Shown here in pieces: positions 33,215-34,581 of a DNA stretch of 36,232 bases. A program made the position numbers and the translations under genes. Source of the stretch: Bacteroidales bacterium. Lineage in GTDB: Bacteria > Bacteroidota > Bacteroidia > Bacteroidales > JAAYUG01. Location of the stretch: contig JAAYUG010000091.1 of the NCBI GenBank assembly GCA_012517825.1, positions 1-36,232 of the forward strand, given 5' to 3'. Numbering within the stretch: position 1 is the stretch's first letter; the number at the start of each line of letters is the position of its first letter. The notes beneath the pieces were generated by a model. That model worked only from the letters and a program-made list of their open reading frames with translations, did no database searches and was not told the DNA's origin.

Positions 33215-33288
33215 GTGGATGTAGCTCAGTTGGTTAGAGTGCCAGATTGTGGCTCTGGAGGTCGCCGGTTCGAGCCCGGTCTTCCACC
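33215..33288 (+). tRNA. tRNA-His (anticodon GTG)
   Basis: The 74 bases fold into a cloverleaf. The D arm is GCTC/GAGT, and the anticodon stem CCAGA/TCTGG (33242-33246 with 33254-33258) has loop TTGTGGC and anticodon GTG at 33249-33251. The variable loop is AGGTC, and the T arm is GCCGG/CCGGT with TTCGAGC. The acceptor stem GTGGATG/CTTCCAC has one T-T mismatch at pair 6-67. The base before the start is G (33214), matching the extra G-1 found in tRNA-His, opposite C73. CCA is not encoded. A perfect 13-bp terminator follows. Confidence 0.96.
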
Positions 33289-33311
33289 CTTACGGAAGTA
33301 AGAAAACACGA

Positions 33312-33351: not shown

Positions 33352-33400
33352 GAAGGGCCTCGGGTTCCTGCTTCGTACAGCTAATTCCTCTAATAAAACT

Positions 33401-33435
33401 GAAGGGATTACAGAAAATCTTTCTGCAACCCCTTC
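33401..33435 (-). terminator. Rho-independent terminator after the VExWML-repeat gene
   Basis: On the minus strand a 16-bp stem with two G-U pairs and only a 3-base loop (GAAGGGGTTGCAGAAA paired with TTTCTGTAATCCCTTC) is followed by AGTTTTATT. It stands back to back with the tRNA-His terminator, 56 bases away. Confidence 0.85.
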
Positions 33436-33479
33436 ATCAACCCAAAACTAACCAACCAACTAACCTAAATCCAACCTAT
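33426..33479 (+). repeat. G-free A/C/T tract of 54 bases with CCAAC-like units
   Basis: No G occurs on the plus strand between 33426 and 33479, and the part after 33437 is made of related units such as AACTAACC and AACCAACT. It ends in an ATG followed by only two codons and a stop. It lies in the 3' untranslated part of the VExWML-repeat gene on the other strand. Confidence 0.6.
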
Positions 33480-33485
33480 GAGAGT

Positions 33486-33851
33486 TTAAATCCATTCTTT
33501 ACTTAGCATCCATGGTTCAACAGCCATGGGTTCTTCCTTATCGGAGACCGGAAGCCCTGTGAAGTATTCCCCGAGCATCCATGCTTCCACTTCCTGAACA
33601 GGCTCGTAGGAGACATCTCCCATAAACAGTTCCGGACAAAGCATCCACGATTCTACCGTCACAACTTCCGAAGCAACTGATGCCGGAGAAAAGATTTCAA
33701 GCATCCAGGCTTCGACTTCAGCAACCGGCTCACTGTAAACCATGGTGAGGTCTTCCTTTACCGGTGCAAGACTGCGAGGTTTTTCACCGGCATATAGCGC
33801 TGTCATTGCGCTTATCAGCATTAATCCTACCACAACAATTCCTTTTTTCAT
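33486..33851 (-). CDS. Small exported protein with four VExWML repeats
   Basis: I do not know a function for this 121-residue protein. Residues 1-21 form a signal peptide (MKKGIVVVGL onward, ending ALYA). The mature part carries four copies of V-E-x-W-M-L at residues 46-51 (VEAWML), 66-71 (VESWML), 88-93 (VEAWML) and 111-116 (VEPWML). They are spaced 20, 22 and 23 residues apart, each usually preceded by EP or EV and followed by an acidic/aromatic segment. Only one Cys (residue 72) is present. The protein ends in KEWI. It has its own terminator; upstream lie two 12-base repeats and an inverted repeat. Short secreted proteins with similar Trp-Met repeats appear in Bacteroidota from memory, but I cannot confirm. 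Confidence 0.75.
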   Translation of the reverse strand: MKKGIVVVGLMLISAMTALYAGEKPRSLAPVKEDLTMVYSEPVAEVEAWMLEIFSPASVASEVVTVESWMLCPELFMGDVSYEPVQEVEAWMLGEYFTGLPVSDKEEPMAVEPWMLSKEWI

Positions 33852-33944
33852 AGCTTTAGTGTTTTGTTACGTCATATTAACAACTGATATGCCAAAATTG
33901 TTCAAACATTATAAATCAATGATTTAGACAGAAATTATTTTTGT

Positions 33945-34013
33945 CATACTCTGAAAAAATGACCATATCCGTACGTAAGGTGTACGAAAACGGTCAAATA
34001 CCATACTCTGAAA
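33945..34013. repeat. Direct repeats flanking an inverted repeat upstream of the VExWML gene
   Basis: The 12-mer CATACTCTGAAA occurs at 33945-33956 and 34002-34013, 57 bases apart, with further partial agreement just after. Between them is an inverted repeat CGTAC-N7-GTACG (33970-33986). The layout suggests an operator or a regulatory region, but no regulator is identified. Confidence 0.55.
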
Positions 34014-34094: not shown

Positions 34095-34547
34095 TTATTC
34101 GCGGAGTTTTTCTTCCCTGATCCACGAAGATTCCCGTCCCAGCCAGCGCATGCCCAGCACATATCCTTTCAACTGGAGGATGCTGGGATCTTTTTCATCG
34201 AACCAAAGGTAGCAGTCGTAGGTTTTCCCGTTGTCAGGGTCATAAATTGTTCCGCCCGACCACTGTTTTTTATCGGCATCATACTTCAGTCCCCGCAAAA
34301 TCACCAACCCAAGTATCGGTTCATTTCTTTTGGCGGGATCAGGATTGTTAACATCTTTCTTGTCTTTGTCTTTTTCAAGCCATGCAACTTTTCCATAGTA
34401 CTTGCCGTCAGTTGCCTTAAAGATGCGGACCTGGGAGGTTTTTTTTGCCGTCAGGTAAACGCCGACAATCTTATCGGCAGGATATTGCGCTGAAACAGCA
34501 GAAACTAACATGACGCAGGCGGTCAGGAGAAGGAGTTTTCTTTTCAT
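34095..34547 (-). CDS. DUF2147 domain exported protein
   Basis: From MKRKLLLLTACVMLVS the protein has 150 residues, with a signal peptide of about 20 residues ending VSAQ. The mature domain shows the DUF2147 marks: KIVGVYLTAKKTSQVRIFKA near residue 26, a KYYGKVAWLEK strand, DPAKRNEPILGLVIL, and then WSGGTIYDPDNGKTYDCYLWF, with WLGRESSWIR near the end. The family forms a small beta barrel in the periplasm and has no fixed function. ATG 34547 is used; a longer frame to 34709 would run into folA. It follows folA by 34 bases. Confidence 0.88.
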   Translation of the reverse strand: MKRKLLLLTACVMLVSAVSAQYPADKIVGVYLTAKKTSQVRIFKATDGKYYGKVAWLEKDKDKKDVNNPDPAKRNEPILGLVILRGLKYDADKKQWSGGTIYDPDNGKTYDCYLWFDEKDPSILQLKGYVLGMRWLGRESSWIREEKLRE

Positions 34548-34581
34548 AGGATTCCGGTTTTTCAGGCGAAAAATAGAAATT

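Follow-up and report, generated by a model that had tools for sequence, protein, structure and literature searches.

Exported acidic ExWM-repeat proteins of Bacteroidales and their putative pairing with a MacAB-TolC-type exporter

Introduction

What might a small exported protein do when it carries four copies of one short motif and resembles no described family? A gene for such a protein lies in a 36,232-nucleotide contig from a Bacteroidales bacterium (GenBank assembly GCA_012517825.1, contig JAAYUG010000091.1), the whole of which we call the window; the genome it comes from is G000. A preliminary description, made from the sequence alone, proposed a secreted peptide precursor, an adhesion factor, or a lipid-interacting protein. 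The decisive evidence, which was invisible to that reader, is a sigma54/enhancer promoter common to the window gene and an exporter operon. MacB-type exporters are widespread, few of their natural substrates are known, and how these are recognized is an open question (PMC5985334).

Results

The window gene encodes a signal peptide and four ExWM motifs

The gene and its parts are as follows.

33486..33851, minus strand: ExWM-repeat gene, 121 aa; ATG at 33851, stop codon ending at 33486
33786..33851, minus strand: signal peptide MKKGIVVVGLMLISAMTALYAG, approximately residues 1-22, read from the sequence; an N-terminal helix in the structural model
33699..33716, minus strand: repeat 1 core VEAWML, residues 46-51
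33639..33656, minus strand: repeat 2 core VESWML, residues 66-71
33573..33590, minus strand: repeat 3 core VEAWML, residues 88-93
33504..33521, minus strand: repeat 4 core VEPWML, residues 111-116
33400..33436, minus strand: intrinsic-terminator-like hairpin 3' of the gene, from a consensus scan only

The preliminary description had placed the gene correctly at 33486-33851 and left its strand unstated; it lies on the minus strand, and the plus strand of this interval has stops in the same frame in the open reading frame analysis. The signal peptide and the four VExWML motifs, which begin at residues 46, 66, 88, and 111, were confirmed, with the motifs 20, 22, and 23 residues apart, as described. 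To call the repeats almost the whole mature protein was slightly generous, since approximately 25 residues ahead of the first motif contain no repeat. The mature part, which has a net charge of −15, was shuffled 100,000 times, and no shuffle contained two or more VExWML motifs.

The four copies use different codons at synonymous sites, which shows that they are no recent DNA duplication and that selection acts on the protein. The orthologue in G001, a genome of the same genus (L003), is 83% identical and keeps 20 of 20 core residues. Between these two genes, a single pair, dN/dS was approximately 0.10 in the motif windows versus 0.38 in the remaining mature chain. Both lie in the gene order thyA, folA, DUF2147-type gene, ExWM gene, in which we take the first three names from reading the sequences rather than from a family search. 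A DUF2147-type exported protein gene immediately precedes ExWM genes in two families (34095-34561 in the window; L281:1396-1848). Just downstream of the window gene, at 33215-33289 on the plus strand, is a tRNA-His (gtg) gene.

The repeats behave as a multivalent short linear motif

Searches of Pfam, NCBIfam, and PDB sequences gave no consistent match to the window protein's family, in agreement with the earlier failure to assign one, and a literature search found no description of the motif. Judged by sequence, the window protein belongs to a family that no catalogue lists, made up of exported acidic proteins in which the consensus [ED]xxLx[LIV]ExWMx[DN]xxx[FW] occurs 2-8 times. Motif statistics were taken from 79 sequences with 349 motifs, in which the E, W, and M anchors are given by construction of the search. 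Conserved independently of these anchors were E/D at −6 (87%), L at −3 (51%), L/I/V at −1 (89%), D/N at +5 (50%), and W/F at +9 (54%). The 79 proteins have a median length of 158 aa and a median mature net charge of about −20; 71 begin with a strongly hydrophobic stretch, and a simple lipobox pattern matched none. The genes were called mechanically, the motif thresholds were chosen in the course of the analysis, several loci come from fragments of metagenome-assembled genomes (MAGs), and a few of the 71-79 members, such as L124, may be wrong.

The preliminary description had asked whether repeat number varies between relatives and had treated conservation of number and spacing as a test. The motif core is invariant across the 79 sequences, whereas copy number (2 to 8) and spacing (mostly 16-31 residues) both vary. 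AlphaFold2 gave no fold for the window protein (signal helix at residues 3-21; pLDDT 70, pTM 0.23) or for a relative with six repeats (pLDDT 52, pTM 0.14), and in both models short helices form at the motifs of an otherwise disordered chain. With an invariant core but variable copy number and spacing, the family shows the pattern of a multivalent short linear motif rather than that of a fixed repeat fold. The general idea of a secreted protein built from a repeated recognition element is thus supported.

ExWM proteins are patchily distributed in Bacteroidales

A pattern of two motifs 16-26 residues apart matched 36 of 295 Bacteroidales genomes, of which approximately six were chance matches by inspection; a reversed control pattern gave only scattered matches. 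With a three-motif pattern in the GTDB collection, true members among the matches listed were found in Bacteroidota only and were titled nearly all as Bacteroidales or its families, including Marinilabilia, Mariniphaga, Prolixibacter, Draconibacterium, Carboxylicivirga, and many MAGs. Matches in other phyla (Paenibacillus, Chamaesiphon, Jettenia, Planctomycetota, and others) were low-complexity, CRISPR-like, or out-of-frame chance matches. A phylum-wide sample of 395 genomes, mostly non-Bacteroidales, held no true members besides those of G000; of its two other matches, one was a simple repeat and the other arose by chance. Matches in open frames of approximately 1270 aa, presumably RNA polymerase beta, were short local resemblances. 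As far as pattern matches indicate, the distribution of the family is patchy inside Bacteroidales.

An enhancer palindrome and a sigma54-type promoter precede the window gene

Three elements were read upstream of the gene, which carries the enhancer palindrome TGACCGTTTTCGTACA.

33879..33894, minus strand: sigma54-type −24/−12 element TGGCATATCAGTTGTT, 43 bp before the ATG; identical in G001
33977..34000, minus strand: enhancer palindrome TATTTGACCGTTTTCGTACACCTT, score 17.6; core end 87 bp before TGGCA
33956..33979, minus strand: weaker second palindrome-like site CTTACGTACGGATATGGTCATTTT, score 5.9

The −24 element and the spacing fit TGGCA-N6-TTGCW, whereas the −12 element deviates (TTGTT); in ExWM genes most −12 elements read TGT or TGA and not TGC. 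Kept between the window and G001 promoters are TTTTGGCA-N6-TTGTT and an upstream CCGTTTTCGTACAC block.

The palindrome TGTNCGN4CGNACA occurs in about half of 71 ExWM upstream regions. With cut-offs that were picked after the data had been seen, its strict form precedes 19 of 71 ExWM genes versus 3 of 285 neighbor genes (p ~1e-10). TGGCA-N6-NTG[CT] was likewise enriched, at 16/71 upstream of ExWM genes compared with 2/285 in control regions (p ~1e-10), and in 30 of the 34 palindrome-bearing genes, TGGCA starts 86-90 bp (99 once) after the palindrome core. As read from these promoters, this layout is that of a sigma54 promoter to which an enhancer protein binds. An rpoN gene is present in the genome of the window, at C203.

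The same promoter architecture precedes an exporter operon

When all of G000 was scanned with the combined palindrome and sigma54 pattern, the architecture was present at exactly three places: before the window gene, before a paralogue of 287 aa with seven repeats (C76), and before an exporter operon (C29). The last site separates a gene for a sigma54 response regulator, which is followed by that of its histidine kinase, from a divergent operon for an HlyD-type membrane fusion protein (MFP), an ABC ATPase, a 100-aa protein, and a TolC-type outer-membrane protein (OEP). The response regulator carries Sigma54_activat and a Fis-type HTH. We infer from these promoters that transcription depends on sigma54 and that the palindrome is bound by the exporter-adjacent regulator.

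The arrangement recurs in relatives, with the same three places in G001, two ExWM genes and the pump in G223, and the pump site together with ExWM sites in G009 and G126. A looser pattern gave 24 readable intergenic sites in ten genomes: 8 before ExWM genes, 9 before exporter parts (six MFP, one MacB permease, one ABC ATPase, and one TolC), 4 before small exported proteins of G002, and 3 others. Since ExWM genes were the source of the pattern, the ExWM matches in this count carry some circularity, and independent evidence comes from the exporter and sister-repeat matches alone. Six further matches, all inside genes, were dismissed as chance. Taken together, the promoter evidence makes it very probable that the window gene belongs to the exporter regulon.

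G002 belongs to a genus, in the same family, that has no ExWM proteins. Three of its four promoter-linked exported proteins carry LExxMxxAAG[IL]Y, strictly or more loosely matched, a sister repeat built on the LExxM skeleton of ExWM.

L358, G002: sister-repeat protein, 257 aa, six copies, behind the same enhancer/sigma54 promoter
L270:5543-6244, G002: sister-repeat protein, behind the same promoter
L270:6685-7127, G002: sister-repeat protein, behind the same promoter

One of these genes follows rsmI, where G009, G126, and G223 have ExWM genes. The G002 proteins are possibly a second version of the ExWM system. In genomes of family f15 (L285:1221-1511, L282, L273:149-334), the enhancer/sigma54 pattern also lies before a small membrane-protein open reading frame that is divergent from a dihydroxy-acid dehydratase-like gene.

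In other lineages an ECF promoter joins the same partners

The palindrome is missing from 37 ExWM genes, of which 20 have the ECF-type promoter TGTAAC-N16-[CA]GTC, which was found in 1 of 285 controls, and 17 have neither. The window gene falls in the palindrome class and lacks TGTAAC-N16-CGTC; ECF promoters belong to other lineages. In families f23 and f72, a strict ECF promoter precedes ExWM genes, an ECF sigma/anti-sigma pair, and MacB ATPase/permease genes. The f23 MFP orthologue, 48% identical over 415 residues to the MFP of G000, has the promoter TGTAAC-N16-CGTC, as do most f23 ExWM genes, and in f72 the ECF promoter is common to the MacB ATPase/permease genes and the ExWM genes. The MFP promoter is of the sigma54 type in f1, f8, f15, f39, and f97 and of the ECF type in f23. 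Overall, the promoter classes of ExWM genes and exporter agree in all seven typed families, five with sigma54 and two with ECF promoters (Fisher p 0.048). The strongest argument for a functional pairing is that it persists when the regulator changes.

The ECF regulons also include other envelope genes. At L299 and L302, an ECF sigma/anti-sigma pair has its own TGTAAC-N16-CGTCWTA promoter, which also stands before MacB-type and other envelope genes. An ExWM match in an ECF anti-sigma looks like chance.

ExWM genes adjoin exporter genes and co-occur with them

Physical linkage was seen in G176, where an ExWM open reading frame lies between histidine kinase/response regulator genes and TolC-MFP-ABC-permease genes, and at L084 and L101, where ExWM genes adjoin an ABC ATPase (at L084, 73% identical to that of G000), MacB permeases, and the same 100-aa gene. 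In G176 (C43, L343:3262-3600 onward), a TGA interrupts the second motif, indicating either a decaying gene or an assembly error. The protein of approximately 100 aa, with IPLP near its N-terminus, is kept next to the exporter ABC ATPase (L265:5779-6081, L084, L101) at approximately 50% identity and gave no Pfam match.

Orthologues of the MFP were present in 21 of 30 ExWM-positive versus 8 of 30 ExWM-negative genomes (p 0.002). Counted by family, the figures were 10/14 and 7/29 (p 0.007), which is the more trustworthy comparison because genomes of one family are not independent. A close MFP orthologue is absent from nine of the 30 ExWM-positive genomes, so the link between ExWM proteins and the exporter is not absolute.

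Some ExWM genes keep other company. As in the PspC/PadR/Toastrack envelope-stress clusters reported previously (PMC11237479), several (L066, L086, L087, L109, L149, L303) lie in or beside PadR-PspC-DUF2807 clusters, and some lead PadR/PspC operons. This location was found for f23 and f72 relatives and not for the window gene or elsewhere in G000. The PadR-PspC cluster of G000 (C84) has no ExWM gene, and the presence of PspC does not track that of ExWM: we rejected PspC as a genome-wide partner because it is near-universal (25/30 ExWM-positive and 24/30 negative genomes). A cluster of the form PspC - PadR - PspC (~530 aa) is widespread in Bacteroidales (L231, L233, L234, L240, L241, L243); in some genomes it is led by a gene for a small exported protein, and in some lineages ExWM proteins are found there.

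Discussion

Our results lead us to favor, with slightly less than even confidence, a model in which the ExWM protein works with a MacAB-TolC-type exporter, most likely as its cargo. A two-component system with a sigma54 activator as its output would turn on the ExWM gene together with a tripartite exporter (HlyD-type MFP, ABC ATPase, and TolC) of the MacB-like (type VII) kind, which takes periplasmic substrates. The window protein, predicted to be Sec-exported, acidic, and largely unstructured, with four copies of ExxLx[LIV]ExWMx[DN]xxx[FW], would be delivered to the periplasm by Sec. There, the exporter may recognize it through the repeated ExWM motifs, whose repetition would give avidity, and move it through TolC to the outside. 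We infer the role of the motif as recognition element from its conservation pattern. A Sec-exported protein that is made together with a pump, and again so under another regulator, is most simply that pump's cargo, although co-regulation as read from promoters is not proof of such a role.

There is a precedent for this model. The substrates of MacB-type pumps are periplasmic; in E. coli, MacAB-TolC secretes the enterotoxin STII, a small protein delivered by Sec (PMC5985334). Like STII, the window protein is small and predicted to be exported; it has a hydrophobic, Sec-type N-terminus and, to judge by promoters, is co-expressed with MFP, ABC, and OEP; across the family, the predicted partners are an MFP, an ABC ATPase, a MacB_PCD/FtsX permease, and a TolC-type OEP. 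Unlike STII (PMC5985334), the putative ExWM cargo is acidic, carries its motif in several repeats, and matches no described family; its export is a prediction from sequence. Unlike MacAB-TolC, the G000 operon as read consists of MFP, ABC ATPase, 100-aa protein, and TolC, and a MacB-like permease was not located.

Alternatively, the protein may be a helper rather than cargo: a periplasmic protector that uses its acidic chain to bind envelope-damaging molecules of a cationic or hydrophobic kind, such as antimicrobial peptides, and either shields the cell or passes them to the co-induced exporter. A median mature charge of about −20 (−15 for the window protein) joined to aromatic and methionine-bearing motifs would suit that task, and MacB-type exporters are a class linked to antimicrobial-peptide resistance (PMC5985334). 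The PadR/PspC envelope-stress neighbors and the ECF control in some lineages point the same way. However, E, W, and M are invariant across very divergent proteins, beyond what a charge sponge would need, and the regulon-type promoter is present at only three places in G000. We consider the protector possible but doubtful.

A role in signaling is less easily reconciled with the data. The repeats could bind the periplasmic part of a sensor kinase, an ECF anti-sigma, or a PspC sensor and so report whether the exporter keeps up. The divergence of the exporter promoter from the response regulator and histidine kinase genes, the promoter that ECF sigma/anti-sigma genes share with ExWM genes, and the position of ExWM genes at the head of PadR/PspC operons in several lineages are all consistent with such feedback. 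Nonetheless, two to four divergent paralogues per genome with changing copy numbers would be unusual for a dedicated ligand, and the anti-sigma has only the one chance-like ExWM match, making a feedback ligand unlikely. The PadR/PspC/DUF2807 neighbors and the wider ECF regulons fit a broader envelope-stress role, whether as protector or as feedback ligand.

The idea of a precursor cut into several mature peptides goes back to the preliminary description; the peptides, one per repeat, could act as signals or like bacteriocins. Such a precursor would account for the repeat layout, the signal peptide, the co-regulation with an exporter, and the variation of repeat number between relatives, yet the idea finds little in the linkers: no cleavage site is conserved, 164 of 270 linkers contain no K/R, only 11 are dibasic, 8 have GG/GA, and their length and sequence vary freely. 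Since the recurrent neighbors include no genes for maturation or immunity, we regard a peptide precursor as improbable. A curli-like surface fiber or adhesin formed by stacking, which four repeats of approximately 20 residues in an exported protein might bring to mind, is very improbable given the non-periodic spacing (mostly 16-31), the strong acidity, the lack of a predicted fold, and the absence of csg-type genes from the neighbors' Pfam tables; neither an adhesin nor the lipid-binding role proposed earlier gained support. A type IX secretion substrate is not supported either, as Pfam and NCBIfam gave no match to a C-terminal sorting domain and only a short stretch follows the last motif.

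Sigma54 control of FtsX/MacB permeases has been predicted in Bacteroidia (PMC12316311), and we likewise find sigma54-type promoters before MacB-type ABC permeases in this class. Unlike our analysis, that survey proceeds by COG category, and the sections drawn on here do not mention small exported repeat proteins or this enhancer palindrome. The regulator-pump half of our model is thus backed by the prediction in those sections, and the repeat proteins are the new half. As far as the literature and databases that we searched extend, the ExWM family and its enhancer/exporter pairing appear to be new.

More speculatively, and with low confidence, these observations may outline an undescribed export system of Bacteroidales, in which a two-component or ECF circuit makes a MacAB-TolC-type exporter together with its own multivalent repeat proteins, marked by a lineage-specific repeat code (ExWM in most, LExxMxxAAGIY in G002), for extracellular signaling or competition.

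In summary, the ExWM family, co-regulated with a MacB-type exporter under two regulators, offers both a candidate substrate and, in a motif present in up to eight copies, a candidate recognition element. Our work suggests a purpose for the sigma54-controlled ABC permeases of Bacteroidia, and it illustrates that an uncatalogued repeat protein may be placed by its promoter where homology fails.
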